From Leptolyngbya sp. FACHB-321 (lineage in GTDB: Bacteria > Cyanobacteriota > Cyanobacteriia > Leptolyngbyales > Leptolyngbyaceae), in contig NZ_JACJPI010000058.1 in NCBI RefSeq assembly GCF_014695975.1, positions 310,001 through 374,000 on the forward strand: DNA of 64,000 nt. The letters are read 5' to 3'. A program made the translations under genes and the position numbers. Every line of letters begins with the position of its first letter. The first letter of the stretch is position 1. A model generated the notes under the pieces. That model searched no databases and was not told where the DNA came from. It saw only the letters and a program-made list of their open reading frames with translations. Positions 26,485 through 50,842 of the stretch are shown piece after piece.

Positions 26485-26588
26485 AACACTCTGCTTTTTA
26501 TACCAGTAGTGAGAGTGCAGGACGGATCGGTGGCGTAAGACTTGGTAGCATAAGCTGTCATGCTTAGGTGTGTAAGCACGAGAACGGG

Positions 26589-28334
26589 ATGCAAGCAATA
26601 AAAAAGTGGCTGACACAGCGAGAGAACAAGCAACTGGTGAGCCTTCTCGTAGGCGGCTTTTTGCTGCGGAGTGCGATCGCCCTTTGGCTGCCAGTCGGTT
26701 TTGATGAAGGCTACTACTACCTCTACAGTCTCCATCCAGACTGGAGCTATTTTGACCATCCGCTGCTAGTAGCACTGACCACAGGCTTTGGTCCCTTGTT
26801 GACCCATACTGTGTCCCCCTTCACCATTCGGTTAGGATCGCTGCTGCTACATACAGGATCGCTGCTGTTGCTGTACTTGACCAGTGTGCGGCTGTTTTCC
26901 AGGCAAGCAGCAATCCTCACGCTGGCGATCGCCACCCTCATCCCCATCTTTCAACTCGGCTTCGGTGTATTGACGTTGCCAGACAGCCCACTGATGTTCT
27001 TCTGGACGGCAACTTTATATGTGGCAGTTTGCGAGTTTTTTGATCAGCAAGAAGATAAGGAATCGCAGCAACCTAGAGAGGCAGACCACTCTCTCCCCCT
27101 GCTGCCCCCTTACTTCTCTCCCTACCGTCCCACCTATCGACTCGCGATCGTCGGTCTACTCATTGGACTTGCCTGCTTAAGCAAATATTACGGACTGGCA
27201 CTTGGTTTCGGACTCATTGGTTTCTGCCTTACCAGCCCACGTTACCGTTTGGCGCTGCTTTCGCCCTGGACATTGGCAAGCCTGGGGCTGTTTACGCTAG
27301 CAGTTCTACCGATCGTCATTTGGAATGCTCAGCACGACTGGGTTTCACTGCGGTTTCAGTCTGGGCGGGCAGTTCCCGATCGTGGATATAGTGTCCTTGA
27401 TCTGCTGGTTACTTTTCTTGTGGGCGTGGGTTATTTGTTTCCAACCTTCGGCTTTCCGCTCTGGTGGGTCAGCGGTAAAGCAGCGATCGAATTGATCAAC
27501 CGAAGAAGATCCGTGAAAACGCAGAAGCGTAGGAGAGCAGAGGCGCAGGGGAGCAGGGAAAGCAAGAGCAAAGAAACCGGAAGCTACGCCTTAGCCCTCT
27601 CCCCTCTCCCCTCTCCCAAAACTGCCTTCCTCCTCTGGCTGTCCCTACCGCTGATGCTGACCTTTACCTTTATGGGTGGGTATCGAGCGATTCTGCCAAC
27701 CTGGGCAATGCCAGGGTTTTGGAGTGCCACACTCTTACTAGGACAGCAGGCAGTTAGTTGGCAACAGCGATCGCCCAAAGTTATCAAACATTGGTTATGG
27801 GGTTCAGGCTGGGTAGTCACCAGTGTGCTGCTGCTGCTGCTGCTGCATCTAACGCTTGGCACGCTACAAAAACCGAGCCGTTATGCCCTCCTTGGCGGGT
27901 TTTTGACTCCCAGCAATGATGCGTCTACGCAGTTGATTGACATCCAGCAACTGCGACAGGGTTTTGCGTCTCCCTTACTGACTGCAGCTATGAGCCAAGC
28001 CAATTTTGTGTTTACTAATGACCTGTTTCTCGCAGGACAGGTGGGGATGGCGATCGCACCGCTTCAGCCCAAACCAATTACCTGCTTCGATCAAGACTTG
28101 CGCGGTTTTGCTTTCTGGTCAACGCCCGATCAATGGGTAGGGCAGGATGGCTTGCTGGTCACATCAGCCTCGCAGTCAAGCAGAACGGTTAAACAATATC
28201 AGGCATACTTTCAGACGATCCAAAAGGTTGCGGATCTGCCGATTCGTCGTGGTGGGGCGATCGTTCAGGTGGTCGAAGTGTATCAATGCCAACGCTTACT
28301 CAAACCCTACCCACGACCCTACGGGCAGAGCTAG
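26589..28334 (+). CDS. GT39/ArnT-type membrane glycosyltransferase (PMT_2 superfamily)
   Basis: The 581-residue polytopic GT-C enzyme probably uses a polyprenyl-phosphate sugar to glycosylate protein or lipid on the outer face of the membrane. The first extracytoplasmic loop has LPVGFDEGYYYLYSLHPDWSYFDHPLL, whose Asp-Glu pair matches the GT-C catalytic acid, and TLPDSPLMFFW is also family-typical. ATG 26589 is preferred over GTG 26568. Two segments look inserted: a Pro/Ser-rich one after FFDQQEDKE (DNA 27055-27130), and a basic then Pro/Ser-rich one after INRRRS (27510-27620). The second is encoded by CTCCCC-type low-complexity DNA. Confidence 0.8.
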   Translation: MQAIKKWLTQRENKQLVSLLVGGFLLRSAIALWLPVGFDEGYYYLYSLHPDWSYFDHPLLVALTTGFGPLLTHTVSPFTIRLGSLLLHTGSLLLLYLTSVRLFSRQAAILTLAIATLIPIFQLGFGVLTLPDSPLMFFWTATLYVAVCEFFDQQEDKESQQPREADHSLPLLPPYFSPYRPTYRLAIVGLLIGLACLSKYYGLALGFGLIGFCLTSPRYRLALLSPWTLASLGLFTLAVLPIVIWNAQHDWVSLRFQSGRAVPDRGYSVLDLLVTFLVGVGYLFPTFGFPLWWVSGKAAIELINRRRSVKTQKRRRAEAQGSRESKSKETGSYALALSPLPSPKTAFLLWLSLPLMLTFTFMGGYRAILPTWAMPGFWSATLLLGQQAVSWQQRSPKVIKHWLWGSGWVVTSVLLLLLLHLTLGTLQKPSRYALLGGFLTPSNDASTQLIDIQQLRQGFASPLLTAAMSQANFVFTNDLFLAGQVGMAIAPLQPKPITCFDQDLRGFAFWSTPDQWVGQDGLLVTSASQSSRTVKQYQAYFQTIQKVADLPIRRGGAIVQVVEVYQCQRLLKPYPRPYGQS

Positions 28335-29418: not shown

Positions 29419-30375
29419 CTAGTCATGTATTGAACCATCTGGCATTACTGCCTCTTTAAGATAAGCGCCCGAGAGATTTGCTTCCCGCAGGTTAGCCTCG
29501 TGGAGGTTCGCTCTATGTAGGTTGGCATCCTGCAAATTTGCCATTGTTAAATTGGCTTTCGCTAAGTTTGCGCCCTGAAGATTTGCCATCATTAAGTTGG
29601 TGCCATGCAGATTCGCAGTACTTAAGTTTGTTGTACTCAGGGTTGCTTCCCGTAGGTCAGCTTCCCGTAGGTTGGCACTAATCAAGGTTGCTTTGTAGAG
29701 GTTGACTCCAATAAGGGTTGCACTAACAAGATTTGCCCCGTCCAGTGTTGCATCAATCAGGTTTGCCATACAGAGATTTGCCAGACTGAGATTCGCCTGT
29801 TTCAGATTGCTTCCATAGAGCGTTGCACCAATCAGGTTTGCCATACAAAGGTTTGCCATACTTAGGTTGGTCATGCTTAGGTTAGCCTCTCGCAGATTCG
29901 CCATGCTGAAATCTGCCTCGCGTAGATCAGCTTTGTAAAGGCTGGCTTCGTGCAGGTTAGCTTTGTGGAGAATAGCTGTGTAAAGCGTCGCTCCTTCCAA
30001 AATTGCGGTGCTCAAGTTAGCCTCCCGCAGGTTTGCCATGCTAAGGTCAACCTGACTTAGATCCGCTTCGCGCAAGTCGGCTTTGTAAAGGTTGGCTTCC
30101 CGCAGGTTGGCTCTATAGAGTATGGCTGTATAAAGCGTGGCTCCCGCAAGCATGGCAATGCCAAGGTTTGCCCCTTCAAGGTTTGCCATACTGAGATCAA
30201 CCTTTTGAAAGCTCACTTCCCTAAGGTCAGCTTTGTAAAAATTGGCTTCTCGCAGATTAGTGTTTCTAAAGTTTGCTCCCTCAAGGTTGGGACTCGTCTT
30301 GGGATGGTTATGCCACCACTCATTCCAGGCGGCTATGCCTTGCTTAAGCAAAGCAAGGTGCCCCTCGTTTGCCAT
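29419..30375 (-). CDS. Pentapeptide-repeat protein
   Basis: The 318-residue protein begins with a short helical cap (LALLKQGIAAWNEWWHNHPK), then about 50 A(N/D)LxX units in tandem from residue 33 to the end. They should fold as a long right-handed quadrilateral beta-helix. There is no signal peptide or membrane segment, and no extra enzymatic domain. The DNA repeats with a 15-base period and higher-order blocks: MANLREANLS and ATLYTAIL recur, suggesting growth by duplication. DNA mimicry is known for a few relatives, but I have no evidence for it here. Confidence 0.9.
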   Translation of the reverse strand: MANEGHLALLKQGIAAWNEWWHNHPKTSPNLEGANFRNTNLREANFYKADLREVSFQKVDLSMANLEGANLGIAMLAGATLYTAILYRANLREANLYKADLREADLSQVDLSMANLREANLSTAILEGATLYTAILHKANLHEASLYKADLREADFSMANLREANLSMTNLSMANLCMANLIGATLYGSNLKQANLSLANLCMANLIDATLDGANLVSATLIGVNLYKATLISANLREADLREATLSTTNLSTANLHGTNLMMANLQGANLAKANLTMANLQDANLHRANLHEANLREANLSGAYLKEAVMPDGSIHD

Positions 30376-37107: not shown

Positions 37108-40056
37108 ATGACTGTGACAGAACCCGGCTCTTATAAAGACACTGTTAATCTTCCAAAGACCAATTTTGACATGCGCGCCAATGCCGTCAAACGGGAACCG
37201 GAACTACAGGCATTTTGGGATGAGCAGCAGCTATACCAACGTCTGTCGCAAGAGAATCCAGGCGAATTGTTTGTATTGCATGATGGACCTCCTTATGCCA
37301 ATGGCTCGTTGCACATGGGGCATGCGCTCAACAAGGTGCTGAAGGATGTGATCAACAAGTACCAGTTGCTATGCGGACGAAAGGTACGCTATGTGCCGGG
37401 TTGGGATTGTCATGGCTTGCCGATCGAGCTTAAAGTGCTGCAAACCCTCAAATCAGACGAGCGCAAAGCGCTGACACCGTTAAAGCTACGGCAAAAAGCT
37501 AAAGAATTTGCCCTCAAAACTGTCGATCAACAGCGACAAAGCTTTAAGAGCTATGGCGTTTGGAGCGATTGGGAGCATCCTTACCTCACTCTGAAACCAG
37601 AGTATGAAGCCGCGCAAATTGGCGTCTTTGGGCAGATGGTGCTTAAAGGCTATATCTACCGAGGCTTAAAGCCTGTCTATTGGAGTCCTAGTTCCAAAAC
37701 GGCACTGGCAGAGGCAGAGCTAGAGTATCCTGAAGGGCACACCTCGCGCAGTCTGTATGCCGCGTTTGAAATCAAGCAGCTTTCACCTGCGCTCATGATG
37801 GGGCTAGATTCCTTCATGGGTAAGGGTGAGTTAGGCGTGGCGATCTGGACAACGACTCCCTGGACGATCCCCGCCAACCTGGCAGTGAGCGTGAACCCAG
37901 AGCTGATCTATGCAGTTGTGGAAGTGGGTGAAAACGCGCCCGGTCGCTTTAAGTACCTGATTGTGGCGAAAGATCTAGTCGATCGCCTCTCAGAAGTCCT
38001 CGGCACCACGCTGACTGTACAGGCAACGATGGTGGGCAAAACGCTGGAGCATACAACATATCAGCATCCCTTGTTCGATCGCCGGAGCGAAATCGTGATC
38101 GGTGGCGATTACGTCACTACAGATACCGGTACGGGTTTAGTGCATACTGCTCCGGGGCATGGTCAAGATGACTATCTTGTGGGTCAACGCTACGGCTTGC
38201 CTATCCTTGCGCCTGTGGATGATGATGGTAACTTTACCGAAGAAGCCGGACCGTTTGCTGGGCTGAATGTGCTGGGCGACGGCAATACGGCGGTGATTGC
38301 AGCGCTGCAAGAGGCTCAGTCTTTACTGAAAGAAGAGCCTTACGTTCACAAATATCCCTACGACTGGCGCACTAACAAACCAACGATCTTTCGGGCAACG
38401 GAACAGTGGTTTGCCTCAGTAGAAGGCTTTCGGGATCAGGCACTGGCAGCGATCGCGGATGTCCGCTGGATTCCGGCTCAGGGCGAAAACCGCATCACGC
38501 CAATGGTGGCAGAGCGATCGGACTGGTGTATCTCTCGTCAGCGAAGTTGGGGTGTACCGATTCCTGTCTTTTACGACGAAGCCACTGCGGAGCCGTTATT
38601 GACTCAGGAAACGATCGCCTATGTGCAGGCGATCGTCGCTGAGCATGGTTCCGATGCTTGGTGGGAGCGCTCCGTTGATGAATTGCTGCCAGAGGCTTAC
38701 CGGAACAATGGACATACCTATCGCAAGGGCACCGACACGATGGATGTCTGGTTCGACTCCGGTTCTTCTTGGGCAGCGGTGCTACAGGAGAGGAGTGAGC
38801 AAGTGAGGGGTGAGGTGCCAGACCATTCACCCCTCTCTCCTCTCTCCTCTCCTCCTACCTACCCCGCCGATCTGTACCTCGAAGGCTCTGACCAGCATCG
38901 TGGGTGGTTCCAGTCCAGTTTGCTGACCAGCGTCGCGGTAAATAATTGTGCGCCATACAAAACTGTGCTGACTCACGGCTTTGTGCTGGATGAGCAGGGC
39001 TACAAAATGAGCAAATCCCTCGGCAACGTCGTTGATCCGATGATCATTATTAAGGGTGGCAAAAACCAGAAGGAGGAACCACCCTACGGTGCTGATGTAC
39101 TGCGGTTGTGGGTTTCGTCTGTCGATTACTCATCCGATATGCGGCTGGGCAAAACTGTCCTGAAGCAGATGGCGGACGTTTACCGTAAGATCCGCAATAC
39201 GGCGCGTTTCTTGCTGGGTAACCTGCATGATTTTGATCCTGCTAAAAATGCCGTGCCCTATGAGCAACTGCCGGAACTCGATCGCTACCTCCTCCATCGC
39301 ATTAACGAAGTCTTTAGCGAAGTAACCGATGCGTTTGACAGCTTTCAGTTTTTCCGCTTCTTCCAAACGGTGCTGAACTTTTGCGTGGTCGATCTCTCTA
39401 ATTTTTATCTAGATAGCGCCAAAGATCGACTTTATATCAGCGCTGAAAATTCGCCCCGTCGTCGCAGTTGCCAAACTGTTCTGGCAATCGCCCTCGAAAA
39501 CCTGGCAAAGGCGATCGCGCCTGTCCTCTCGCATATGGCAGAAGACATCTGGCAAGCGCTACCCTATACCACGCCGCATACGTCTGTTTTTCAAGCAGGT
39601 TGGGTCACGCTAGATGACCAGTGGCACGCACCAGCACTGGCTACCAAATGGCAAACCCTTGCTCAAAGCCGTGATGAGGTCAACAAGGTGCTTGAAAAAG
39701 CCCGTGCTGACAAAGCGATCGGTTCGTCGCTAGAAGCAAAACTGCTGCTGTATACAGCTGATGCCCAACTTAAAGAGACATTACAGGCACTTAACGTCTC
39801 TGGTAGCCTGAGCGGCAACGGTGTAGATGAACTCCGCTACCTGTTTCTCACCTCTCAAGTAGAGCTGCTAGACACTGTTGATCGCATCACTGGGCTCAAG
39901 TACAGCGCTCAGGCAAACGCCCTTCAAATTGGAGTTGTGGATGCGGAGGGTAAAAAATGCGATCGCTGCTGGAACTACTCCACTTACGTTGGCGAATCGG
40001 CTGCACATCCCTTACTCTGTGAACGCTGCATTCCAGCGTTGGAAGGGGCATTTTGA
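37108..40056 (+). CDS. ileS: Isoleucyl-tRNA synthetase
   Basis: A class I synthetase of 982 residues. Motifs are PPYANGSLHMGHALNK (HIGH-type), the CP1 editing domain with TTPWTIPANLA and DTGTGLVHTAPGHGQDDY, WCISRQRSWGVPIP, and GYKMSKSLGN (KMSKS). The C-terminal zinc site is KKCDRCWNY...LLCERC. A Ser/Pro-rich stretch of about 20 residues interrupts the conserved catalytic core just before PADLYLEGSDQHRGWF. It is encoded by 38787-38858, which is a GAGGGG/CTCCTC low-complexity hairpin-forming segment and looks like an in-frame repeat insertion. Reading frame and downstream motifs are intact. Confidence 0.96.
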   Translation: MTVTEPGSYKDTVNLPKTNFDMRANAVKREPELQAFWDEQQLYQRLSQENPGELFVLHDGPPYANGSLHMGHALNKVLKDVINKYQLLCGRKVRYVPGWDCHGLPIELKVLQTLKSDERKALTPLKLRQKAKEFALKTVDQQRQSFKSYGVWSDWEHPYLTLKPEYEAAQIGVFGQMVLKGYIYRGLKPVYWSPSSKTALAEAELEYPEGHTSRSLYAAFEIKQLSPALMMGLDSFMGKGELGVAIWTTTPWTIPANLAVSVNPELIYAVVEVGENAPGRFKYLIVAKDLVDRLSEVLGTTLTVQATMVGKTLEHTTYQHPLFDRRSEIVIGGDYVTTDTGTGLVHTAPGHGQDDYLVGQRYGLPILAPVDDDGNFTEEAGPFAGLNVLGDGNTAVIAALQEAQSLLKEEPYVHKYPYDWRTNKPTIFRATEQWFASVEGFRDQALAAIADVRWIPAQGENRITPMVAERSDWCISRQRSWGVPIPVFYDEATAEPLLTQETIAYVQAIVAEHGSDAWWERSVDELLPEAYRNNGHTYRKGTDTMDVWFDSGSSWAAVLQERSEQVRGEVPDHSPLSPLSSPPTYPADLYLEGSDQHRGWFQSSLLTSVAVNNCAPYKTVLTHGFVLDEQGYKMSKSLGNVVDPMIIIKGGKNQKEEPPYGADVLRLWVSSVDYSSDMRLGKTVLKQMADVYRKIRNTARFLLGNLHDFDPAKNAVPYEQLPELDRYLLHRINEVFSEVTDAFDSFQFFRFFQTVLNFCVVDLSNFYLDSAKDRLYISAENSPRRRSCQTVLAIALENLAKAIAPVLSHMAEDIWQALPYTTPHTSVFQAGWVTLDDQWHAPALATKWQTLAQSRDEVNKVLEKARADKAIGSSLEAKLLLYTADAQLKETLQALNVSGSLSGNGVDELRYLFLTSQVELLDTVDRITGLKYSAQANALQIGVVDAEGKKCDRCWNYSTYVGESAAHPLLCERCIPALEGAF
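38787..38858 (+). repeat. Low-complexity repeat inserted in frame within ileS
   Basis: The segment has a purine-rich left part (GGAGAGGAGTGAGCAAGTGA) and a pyrimidine-rich right part of CTCTCTCCTCT type. GAGGGGTGA and TCACCCCTC allow a stem of about 8-9 bases. It keeps the frame and adds about 20 residues absent from typical IleS. It resembles the intergenic low-complexity spacers elsewhere in the window. Confidence 0.6.
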
Positions 40057-46236: not shown

Positions 46237-47541
46237 CTACGCACCCCTTCCGTACACTGAATGAATGTCTCCTAAAAGCACCGAGTTTTGAGCGCCCGTT
46301 GCCTCAGGAAGGTTGCCAGCGATACCTTGCTGCCGCCAGTACGCGAGTACAGCAAAGGCGATCGCTTCTTTAAATTCGGCATTCAACCCTACATCATCTG
46401 TCGTTAAAACAGGGATGTTACCCAATTGCCGCTGCAATCGCTGTTTCAAATATAGGTTCTTACTGCCCCCGCCGCATAGCAAGACTTGATCGGGCAGTTG
46501 CGGCAAAAAGTGACGGTAGCTATGGACGATCGAGTCTACGGTTAAGGCTGTTAGCGTTGCCAGTATATCGGCATGGGTGAGTGAGTGCGCCTCTGCATCT
46601 GCCAAACACTGGTGGAGATAGGCAGCACCAAATAATTCTCGCCCGGTTGATTTTGGCGGCTGTTGCTGGAAAAACGGCTGTTGCAGCCAGCGATCGACTA
46701 GGGCTTCGCAAGGCGTACCACTTGCTGCCCAGTTGCCGTCTTTGTCGTACGTCTTCGTACCATTGGAAAAAGTTTGCACTGCCAGGTCGAGGAGCACGTT
46801 ACCGGGTCCAGTATCCCAGCCGAGGGGAGAAAGGGGGCGTGGGGGGTAGGGAGTAGGGAGTGGGGACGCGTTTTGAGTTGTGAGCTTTTCTTGCTCCATC
46901 ATCCCATCGCCCCATCGCCCCATCGCCTTTTGCCCCCTGGTGGGTAAATACGCTACATTGCCAATGCCGCCAATGTTTTGCACGCAACGGTTGAGGGTGG
47001 GATGACTAAGGAGCGCCACATCTACAGCAGGCACGAGGGGTGCACCGTGTCCACCAGCGGCAATGTCAGCGGCACGAAAGTTACTGATGGTTGTAATGCC
47101 TGTAGCGTTGGCGATCGCCTCTCCCCGTCCCAGTTGTAAGCTGTAGCCTAGGGAGTGAGGGGTAAGGGGTGAGGGGTAAGGGGTAGGAGCCCTTTCTCCC
47201 ACTGCGCTCTCCTCTCCTCGCCTGGGTTTCGGTGGTCGATGATAGACCGTTTGCCCATGGGAACCGATGAGTACAGCCGTGGGGTGTCCCGTTTGAATGG
47301 CGATCGCGGCTTGAGCAAACTGATGGGCGATCGCGTCGTCTAGATCTGCCAGGTCTGCCATTGATAGTGATGCACCGCCACAGACTGCCAAGATCTGTGC
47401 TCGTAGCTCTGTGGGATAGGGATAGGTTGCTCCTGCTAACAGAGTGACTGCTAGAGTGCCTGTAGCATCCGAAAGATCGACTAGAGCCGCATCAATGCCG
47501 TCTACAGAGGTGCCGCTCATTAAGCCAATGACAAGAGCCAT
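46237..47541 (-). CDS. anmK: 1,6-anhydro-N-acetylmuramic acid kinase
   Basis: AnmK opens the anhydro ring and phosphorylates anhydroMurNAc in cell-wall recycling. [75 protein letters not shown] and [10 protein letters not shown] match the family. At 434 residues it is about 60 longer than usual. Two Pro/Ser/Arg-rich insertions explain this: one after YHRPP (DNA about 47148-47228) and one after YLPTRG (about 46812-46935). Both are encoded by GGGGTGAGGGG-type low-complexity DNA, and the frame is kept. Both flank conserved elements, so function may or may not survive. Confidence 0.9.
46812..46935 (-). repeat. Low-complexity repeat inserted in frame in anmK (second)
   Basis: The segment combines a (G)AGGGAGTAGGGAGT purine-rich half with a CCATCGCCCCATCGCCC pyrimidine-rich half. 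It encodes about 38 extra residues between YLPTRG and GWDTGPGN, which are nearly adjacent in normal AnmK. CATCGCCC is itself repeated two to three times. Confidence 0.6.
47148..47228 (-). repeat. Low-complexity repeat inserted in frame in anmK (first)
   Basis: GAGGGGTAAGGGGT is repeated in tandem, followed by a CTCTCCTCTCC tract. It encodes about 27 extra residues between HRPP and YSLQLGRG. Confidence 0.6.
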
Positions 47542-49209: not shown

Positions 49210-49408
49210 GTTGTTTAGTGTTTCTAACCAGCCTTTCAACGCGAGAAGCACTGCCCAACACGATCGCTCACCGACAGCGATCGTTACTCTGAAACAGCCA
49301 TAGGAGTGCGACACAGGAAGTAAGGGAAGTAAGGACAGTTTTAAGTGGTAGGTAGTGCTGCTACTCTAGAAAGCCTCGCGTTGCTTTTAGCTCTTCATCC
49401 CTCATCTC

Positions 49409-50842
49409 TTACGCCTTACCCCTCCATGTACCATGAAAACCAGGCGGTACGGTTTCGGGTAATGCCAGCCTACAGATTGGTTCGTCATCCAGACGCTCGC
49501 TGTCGAAAATCCAGGCTTCACTGTGATCGACATTTGCGTTGTACACCACCGTCAGCACCCAGCCTCGATCGACATCATCCGCATCGGGCGCATAGATCGG
49601 TTCGCTGGGATAACAGTTCGCACCAAAATCAGCTTCGGTGAGGGTTGCGGTTTGGTAATCGAAACGAGCGATCGCGCCAAACAGTTCTCGCTGCAACTCC
49701 ACATCCTGACGATGAATGGACAGGTAAGTGTAGCGTGATGGCTGACCCACAGACCTAGGCTGCACGGTTGGAAATTCGCAACTGCGGTTAACGACTTCTT
49801 CTAGCGCTAGTACGGTGCCCGCTTTGGGTTCAAGCCGCAACTGCCAGAGAGTACCCTTTGCCAAGGTTTGAGTCTGCCCAGTTGCCACTTCTTTAAGAAA
49901 TTGGTTGGTCTGAAAATCGGGGTAGCGCACAAAGTCAAAGGCGACAGTTCCGTCAGCTAGTTCACTGCCGTTGCCAAAGTGCCACTGATACCAGGGTTCG
50001 GCTTGAGTGCGGCTGACGACTTCCAGGGTGGTGCGATCGACCACAATAATTTCAGTGCCTTTCTCCGGTTGCCAGGTTAGCGCTTCACTATAGCTCTTTA
50101 GCTTCGCCAGCAAGGGCAGCGCCTTCAACCGCACAGGTGGGACGCAGAAAATCAAATACTGACCCGCCAGCACCCAGTCATGGATGAGAGGCAACCCCTG
50201 GAGTGGAATCTTGCCGTGCTGCTTTACTTTGCCACTAGCATCGCTACGGTACAGATTGAGCGTGCCGTTCCGACCAAAGCTTACCCCAAAATTAAAGATG
50301 TCACCCGTTTGCAGATCGCGCTTGGGATGTGCGGAATAAGCGGCTCCATCCAAGCCATTGAGGTCATCAAGTCCCAGCGTTTCGAGGCGATCGAGTGTCA
50401 AGGCGTGCGGTAGTCCACCTTCCCACAAGGCAAGAAGCTTGTCGGGCAAAGCCAGCACAGATGTATTGGCAGCATTCTTCAGCCCTTTGTTAAACCGCTC
50501 CCACCAATGACCAGGCGGCAACATGCCATAACCACTGTGCTTAAACGCTCCAACTTGGGTTTCTGCCCGATACGCAGCAGTTTGGACATAGCGATACACA
50601 CCTGTTGCACCTGCCGTTGTAAAGTGCAGTCCCAGAATGCCGCCATCACCATCAAACCAGTGCCCTACCCGTTGCCCACCTCGCTCCAGTAAGGCAGGCC
50701 CATTGCGATAGAGAGAGCCACGCAAGCCCGAAGGCACAGCTCCAGACAAAATGCTGAGGGGGATGGGACCAAACTCGGTGGCAGGTCGAAGCACTGCCTT
50801 TGCCCATGCCCCAACCTTGGTTGGTTGAATAGTGTTAATCAT
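49409..50842 (-). CDS. Carotenoid oxygenase (apocarotenoid 15,15'-cleaving type)
   Basis: This non-heme Fe(II) dioxygenase cleaves carotenoids or apocarotenals, probably giving retinal. The 477-residue seven-bladed propeller has GSLYRNGPALLERGG and HWFDGDGGI, and the four iron-binding His in YSAHPKRD, LIHDWVL, YQWHFGNGSE and PGFHGTW. All four ligands are present. A cytosolic or membrane-associated location is likely. The length is like Synechocystis ACO. No bacteriorhodopsin-like gene is nearby, so the product's use is unknown. Confidence 0.9.
   Translation of the reverse strand: MINTIQPTKVGAWAKAVLRPATEFGPIPLSILSGAVPSGLRGSLYRNGPALLERGGQRVGHWFDGDGGILGLHFTTAGATGVYRYVQTAAYRAETQVGAFKHSGYGMLPPGHWWERFNKGLKNAANTSVLALPDKLLALWEGGLPHALTLDRLETLGLDDLNGLDGAAYSAHPKRDLQTGDIFNFGVSFGRNGTLNLYRSDASGKVKQHGKIPLQGLPLIHDWVLAGQYLIFCVPPVRLKALPLLAKLKSYSEALTWQPEKGTEIIVVDRTTLEVVSRTQAEPWYQWHFGNGSELADGTVAFDFVRYPDFQTNQFLKEVATGQTQTLAKGTLWQLRLEPKAGTVLALEEVVNRSCEFPTVQPRSVGQPSRYTYLSIHRQDVELQRELFGAIARFDYQTATLTEADFGANCYPSEPIYAPDADDVDRGWVLTVVYNANVDHSEAWIFDSERLDDEPICRLALPETVPPGFHGTWRGKA

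Follow-up and report, generated by a model that had tools for sequence, protein, structure and literature searches.

In a 64,000-nucleotide (nt) stretch of the Leptolyngbya sp. FACHB-321 genome (contig NZ_JACJPI010000058.1; hereafter the window), ileS, the gene for isoleucyl-tRNA synthetase (IleRS), carries an in-frame insert built of 7-nt repeats. Judged from its sequence, the insert is probably a pair of heptad arrays of the kind called short tandemly repeated repetitive (STRR) sequences, set in the IleRS loop before the YLEGSDQ strand and translated as a flexible Ser/Pro-rich segment. The best reading of the comparisons reported here is that heptad arrays enter coding loops and are re-written in place. 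An earlier note on this DNA had placed repeat DNA in frame within ileS, and it was right to do so: the repeat is of a genome-wide type, the frame is open, and the gene is under strong purifying selection. Beyond that note go the 7-nt period itself and the different arrays found at the same place in relatives.

The insert adds 54 nt, or 18 residues, to the loop (117 nt against the usual 63 nt) and lies between DVWFDSG and YLEGSDQ of IleS, in DNA between DVWFDSGSSWAAV and YPADLYLEGSDQHRGWF. It consists of a G-rich 7-nt left arm, a short spacer, and a C-rich 7-nt right arm, and the two arms are able to pair, with GAGGGGTGA (38805-38813) and TCACCCCTC (38827-38835) forming a stem. The fold of 38787-38860 reaches -44.2 kcal/mol, compared to -26.9 (standard deviation, 3.0) for shuffled sequences (z = -5.76; 0 of 200 shuffles as good), and Tandem Repeats Finder (TRF) reports a period-7 array at 38832-38856. 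A related heptad pattern, allowing up to 3 mismatches, matches 11 times in the window against 1.27 expected, a number equalled by none of 100 shuffles. Both arms of the purine-rich/pyrimidine-rich segment described earlier, and its stem, are confirmed. Since seven leaves a remainder of one when divided by three, three exact TGA-bearing units would expose TGA in every frame, and the G-rich arm in the window appears to escape an in-frame TGA through one 8-nt step.

The host gene is a complete, single open reading frame (ORF) that scores 1000.6 bits against TIGR00392, for which the cut-off is 621.4. Among congeners, the ratio of nonsynonymous to synonymous substitution rates (dN/dS) is 0.035 to 0.052 for IleS, at a synonymous divergence (dS) of 0.65 to 1.24, that is, far apart at synonymous sites; ileS here is a gene under strong purifying selection. 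In the three best-matching solved IleRS structures (8c9e, 8c9f, and 1ffy), the insert segment aligns to gaps. Six plasmid records are related to the ileS region, all matching solely downstream of the insert, and three of them are annotated as ileS.

The same loop was examined in the family of the window genome, which comprises 42 genomes; the ileS core was obtained from 41 and the loop was read in all 41. Nine of these hold 7-nt arrays (+39 to +123 nt; hereafter filled), two hold loops of +12 nt without heptads (G003 and G014), and 30 lie within 6 nt of the 63-nt loop. With G000 denoting the window genome and g1 its genus, the excess is +54 nt in G000 and G005, +75 in G002, +57 in G004, G010, and G019, +123 in G006 and G032, and +39 in G023. 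Every excess is a multiple of three, and none of the nine filled alleles breaks the frame or contains a stop. Moreover, each of the nine has its highest autocorrelation among lags 5 to 9 at lag 7 (0.43 to 0.71) and presents the G-rich before the C-rich arm. Some length differences are themselves counted in heptads: G023 and its congener G032 differ by 84 nt (twelve heptads), and the G002 loop is longer than that of the window by 21 nt (three heptads), whereas the remaining differences are not multiples of seven. In the filled genomes, no second match of IleS strength was found among the matches listed (to about 1e-47), so the insert-bearing enzyme is presumably the working one; the filled gene is a full-length ORF in seven of nine.

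By eye, the arrays at this single position are of several types. The window allele combines GAGGAGT-like heptads with CCTCTCT, G005 and G002 combine GGCAGAG with a C-rich right arm, G004 and G006 are GAGT-rich followed by CTCAAAA, G019 and G010 combine CAGTTCT with CTCAAAC or CTCAAAA, and G032 combines GACGAAG with CGCCACT, of which the G023 array is a shorter relative. G010 and G019, which belong to different genera, have an identical 26-nt left arm in ileS. Two side observations concern these ileS genes: short palindromes are nested within the loop arrays of G006 (locus L006) and G002 (L004), and the G019 IleS has an additional array close to its C-terminus. The G006 palindrome was considered as a high-copy member of the small dispersed repeats (SDR), which is unsupported, as it has 1 match in G006 and 1, 1, and 3 in G000, G002, and G001 (up to 3 mismatches). 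In G014 (L134) and G013 (L160), the ileS match falls into two pieces on one contig, in different frames and away from the loop.

Most of the cyanobacteria whose loop was read have one of ordinary length. A wider sample, taken from a genome scan ranked by similarity to the query and including family members, gave 80 named loci, of which 78 were read; the heptad type occurs there only in Leptolyngbya sp. ULC077bin1 (L034, with the same loop as G023), L106 has a heptad-free loop of +54 nt, an excess of +12 nt is seen in L045 and L100, and the others lie within 6 nt. A class-wide survey of 388 genomes, drawn evenly from a larger group at completeness of at least 90, yielded matches in 380. E-values weaker than 1e-60, which roughly indicate a split loop, were seen in 7 of 37 family genomes and in 6 of 343 matched genomes outside the family (G051, G127, G247, G329, G350, and G360); this indicator is leaky and misses the filled G023. 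A same-length segment conserved in distant cyanobacteria, which would have made the insert an ordinary family loop, was thus not what we found. The segment is absent from the congener G001 and from nearly all other cyanobacteria read, but the clean edges expected of an insertion are only partly seen, as filled alleles also differ from the empty congener in the codons directly before the array.

Most of the ileS repeat types tested are also abundant elsewhere in the genomes that carry them. Period-7 arrays number 18 in 394 kb of the window's own genome, compared to 0 to 3 for periods 5, 6, 8 to 11, and 13, and 123 in 400 kb of G010, compared to 0 to 6 for the other periods; the relative G011 has 3 in 400 kb, none inside ORFs. 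A stricter scan gave 14 period-7 arrays against 0 to 2 for other periods, six of them within ORFs, with a partly different set. In G010, array pairs within 120 nt run G-rich then C-rich 21 times and in reverse once, an order that is identical when read from either strand. The notion of a mobile small repeat, copied as a unit like those of Rickettsia, is not supported by this comparison: a 121-nt query gives one match in its own genome, namely itself, although the repeat type is dispersed, and the one arm that recurs, in G010 and G019, has a differing neighbouring loop and right arm among the copies inspected. A fixed mobile unit was rejected on account of this single copy and of the divergence beyond the G010/G019 arm.

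Four types were counted across genomes, 14 genomes per type and with overlapping registers of one array included; the types of G023, G032, and the G019 right arm lie outside the count. Hits of the GGCAGAG type number 1093 in G005 and 503 in G002, both of which carry it in ileS, and 0 to 455 in the other 12. The GAGTTCTCAGTTTTAAGTTCTCAGTT arm has 39 hits in G019 and 20 in G010, again both carriers, and 0 to 5 in the other 12, while for the CTCAAAA type the carriers G010, G004, and G006 give 310, 248, and 176 hits and the other 11 give 0 to 163. For three of the four types tested, therefore, the ileS carriers are the genomes richest in that type. Reversed-pattern controls for CTCAAAA and CCTCTCT were also high, the arrays being partly alike backwards, and only the comparison between genomes was used. 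A threefold CYYCNCY motif was set aside as evidence of enrichment, with 61 hits against 46 in the reversed control.

How the arrays came to be distributed in this way was considered on an IleS tree of 42 rows (41 family members and one outside), built by a quick method with the loop excluded and with 10 of 39 inner branches weak. Presence of an array requires a minimum of 5 changes, a count from which gain and loss are indistinguishable. The filled rows stand in four places, namely genus g1, G010, G019, and G023 with G032. The arrays may go back to one old insertion that has been re-written repeatedly, or they may have been inserted on several occasions. The former, in which a single insertion in the family ancestor was inherited, re-written in place by slippage and quasipalindrome correction, and lost several times, is a serious but doubtful candidate. 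It would account for the same position in every filled genome, for the Leu after SSWAAV in all nine filled alleles, for the +12-nt loops of G003 and G014 as remnants, and for the apparent homology, by eye, of the G004 and G006 alleles and of the G002 and G005 left arms; G019 and the G023/G032 pair also belong to one larger clade. However, it requires losses to the ordinary loop in many lineages, including G001, whose near flanks are closest to those of filled G004 (identity of 0.90 and 0.91 on the two sides), and it sits poorly with repeat types that track the genome pool for three of the four types tested and with an exact 26-nt arm common to two genera. Replacement of the whole ileS region of G001 by recombination was rejected, as no long tract was found and G004 is closest on both sides; a tract below about 90 nt is possible.

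Under the main reading, new arrays in a genome would be copied from heptad arrays or hairpins elsewhere in it, or arise by template switching among these, and would lengthen or shorten through 7-nt slippage. In ileS, only products in multiples of three and without stops would survive. The strong constraint on ileS, while several arrays stay crisp, points to recent or continuing re-writing. A further-reaching proposal, whose chances we place somewhat short of even, is that these cyanobacteria have an ongoing, genome-wide process that inserts their current heptad arrays, in G-rich/C-rich pairs, into favoured coding loops and replaces them there as the pool changes. The ileS loop would then be a place where arrays land again and again, newly inserted or replaced independently in as many as four lineages. 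If this holds, essential enzymes bear fast-changing disordered loops that are templated by repeats, not by point mutation.

The insert could be tolerated because of where it lies. An AlphaFold2 model gives residues 563-583 a predicted local distance difference test score (pLDDT) below 50 and places them between a helix (551-565) and a strand (587-593) that runs into the EGSDQ motif. The insert loop is therefore predicted to be a disordered helix-to-strand loop. The helix-to-strand side of a Rossmann-type sheet points away from the active site, and connections of this kind may be what lets the protein accept the arrays. Hence, the earlier placement in the catalytic core is true in sequence and probably untrue in space. 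The insert peptide may well be without specific function, and the insert near neutral.

The alternative that the loop is a selected functional extension, for docking or regulation, say, which merely happens to be encoded by repeats, is improbable. Its recurrence at a single position in ileS, in four separate parts of the tree, speaks for it, but the peptides differ strongly between species, the segment is absent in the congener G001 and predicted to be disordered in the window protein, and arrays of the same kind occur in unrelated proteins. Still less credible is ordinary low-complexity growth at the protein level, unlinked to genomic repeats: surface loops of enzymes do often vary, and L106 has its +54-nt loop without heptads, but a period of 7, the lag peak in all nine alleles, is not a codon multiple, and the same repeat types are dispersed through the genomes.

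Translation of the insert bears on one further alternative. Among 22 G-to-C array pairs outside ORFs of G010, 17 of 132 frames are stop-free, and this figure together with nine open, in-frame ileS alleles indicates selection on a translated product. Phage T4 gene 60 and the mitochondrial byp elements are cases of translational bypassing, and a segment that is cut out of the transcript, or that ribosomes skip as in those cases, would fit a strong hairpin in mid-gene and the tolerance of 13 to 41 extra residues near an active-site motif in sequence. Nevertheless, a bypassed element needs neither frame nor freedom from stops, the anmK loops in genus g1 are open too, and the sole out-of-frame case (G010) reads as a broken gene. 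We regard an untranslated segment as very improbable.

Several points weigh against the reading of arrays written repeatedly into coding loops, or temper the evidence for it. The CCTCTCT type of the window has 24 hits at home, counted genome-wide with up to 3 mismatches, compared to 155 in G005 and 132 in a genome with an empty ileS loop, G030. G001 has 163 CTCAAAA hits but an ordinary ileS loop, and G010 has 455 GGCAGAG hits and none of that type in ileS. The arms of filled alleles pair better with their own partners than when swapped (mean of -27.7 versus -19.3 kcal/mol; permutation p of 0.001), in a test that counts related alleles as independent, and the hairpin z-scores of single alleles are uneven, at -4.8, -6.9, and -4.7 in three, -1.0 to -2.3 in five, and +1.5 in G019. 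Pairs in G000 are too few for a test of arm order (0 mixed, or 3 to 0 when the threshold is relaxed). Contig ends cut two of the filled ileS genes, those of G004 and G032. Finally, the structure model is fair, with a mean pLDDT of 73.6 and, relative to the closest solved IleRS, a template modelling score of 0.62 to 0.67 and a root-mean-square deviation of at least 13 Å.

Arrays in coding sequence are not peculiar to ileS. Calling of ORFs was mechanical and used no gene finder; where an array disrupts its gene, the count would miss it as intragenic. Six of the 18 period-7 arrays in the window's own genome lie within 5 ORFs: ileS, anmK (two), a PMT_2-like transferase, a RecN/SMC-like ATPase, and one further ORF; a HerA-like gene has an in-frame array at another threshold (Table 1). 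The anmK sites hold heptad arrays of differing sequence in most congeners read. Within genus g1, an array is present at site 1 in 5 of 6 covering genomes and at site 2 in 6 of 7, with G003 the exception at both, and all loops read are open. In G010 (L175), the second anmK site is out of frame and interrupted by stops, and from its sequence the gene appears to be broken; anmK is presumably nonessential, and this broken site serves as a counter-case to ileS, which is open in all nine filled genomes. Both loops of the PMT_2-like glycosyltransferase vary in length among the relatives read. The array at the end of a carotenoid-oxygenase-like ORF perhaps supplies its stop region.

Table 1. Positions of ileS, its insert, and other array-bearing genes (window positions unless a locus is named)
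Feature	Position	Strand	Remarks
ileS, isoleucyl-tRNA synthetase, 982 aa	37108..40056	+	open throughout; contains HMGHA, KMSKS, and two CxxC motifs
Hairpin insert of heptad arrays, net excess of 54 nt	38787..38858	+	encodes about ERSEQVRGEVPDHSPLSPLSSPPT; exact edges ambiguous
Left G-rich arm, degenerate heptads	38787..38815	+	TGA out of frame only
Right C-rich arm, CCTCTCT heptads	38827..38856	+	
anmK (PF03702)	46237..47541	-	heptad arrays in two loops, both in frame (about 46834-46866 and 47150-47187)
PMT_2-like glycosyltransferase	26568..28334	+	heptad array at 27589-27617; variable Ser/Pro-rich loop near residues 160-185
Degenerate heptad array	49400..49424	-	overlaps 3' end of carotenoid-oxygenase-like ORF (49409-50842, PF03055)
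RecN/SMC-like gene, own genome	L142 7602-9578	-	in-frame heptad array
HerA-like gene, own genome	L157 5782-7515	-	in-frame heptad array

G010 has 28 period-7 arrays in 15 ORFs (400 kb, L308-L327), where period 14 yields 28 as well, as expected of a multiple. Several of its ORF arrays are in-frame chains of different types, such as EGRGQKAEG...TQNSKLKTQNS...PTPHTPHP. Elsewhere in the window, TRF marks a 150-nt tandem repeat with 15-nt subunits (29927-30260), perhaps a pentapeptide-repeat-like coding region.

Among known systems, the STRR sequences stand closest. They are reportedly mostly 7-nt repeats (attributed to Mazel 1990 and Vioque 1997), and, by its title, the work of Vioque is said to place one inside the RNase P RNA gene. 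The window insert resembles them in its 7-nt tandem unit (TRF and lag 7), its dispersed type (18 arrays per 394 kb), and its ability to form a hairpin, but it is translated within an essential enzyme instead of lying in the usual location outside coding sequence, and its types differ between lineages. The SDR of cyanobacteria are reported by Elhai et al. (2008) as very small repeats that seem to be mobile, with a fixed unit of about 20 nt, and that nest in heptamer arrays; the repeated matter in ileS is an array arm, not a fixed unit in near-identical copies. Rickettsia palindromic elements are conserved units of about 100 to 150 nt, present in many copies and in frame within proteins, where they are tolerated in loops. 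The window insert shares with them the in-frame position and the absence in relatives, but not the conserved, many-copy unit, as it gives one match. In the Nostoc tRNA-Leu intron, complementary heptanucleotide repeats form the two arms of one stem-loop, P6b, at a fixed site; the ileS arms are likewise complementary and at a fixed site, but they are coding, whereas P6b is a non-coding intron stem.

In the part available of one account, STRR are described as hairpin-forming 7-nt units of filamentous cyanobacteria in promoter or intergenic positions, and the function of cyanobacterial heptad repeats is stated there as not known (PMC2670836). A G-quadruplex study, also seen in part, describes GGGGA(C/T)T heptamers of Nostoc sp. 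PCC 7120 as multi-copy arrays of which 68% are intergenic, so that an intragenic fraction is already in print; the portion seen is silent on an in-frame peptide, on a common insertion site, and on G-then-C pairing (PMC4692102). Short in-frame gene segments that vary between strains are reported for Escherichia coli and other species, likewise short and in frame, with no tie to heptad arrays in the portion available (PMC2884548). Our literature search, with Elhai 2008 and Vioque 1997 outside its coverage, returned nothing on translated heptad arrays in ileS or any other aminoacyl-tRNA synthetase, nor on a coding site that such arrays have in common or on their G-then-C order, and absence from print is thus unproven. 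Arrays that occupy the same position of an essential gene across several genera provide a selectable readout of array arrival, type change, and departure, since each event must keep the frame, so that failures are removed and successes are easily aligned. STRR hairpins, an intragenic share of heptamers, and in-frame palindromes are already known. The in-frame ileS arrays show a route from extragenic repeats to new protein sequence and suggest that repeat "junk" DNA keeps being written into working proteins.

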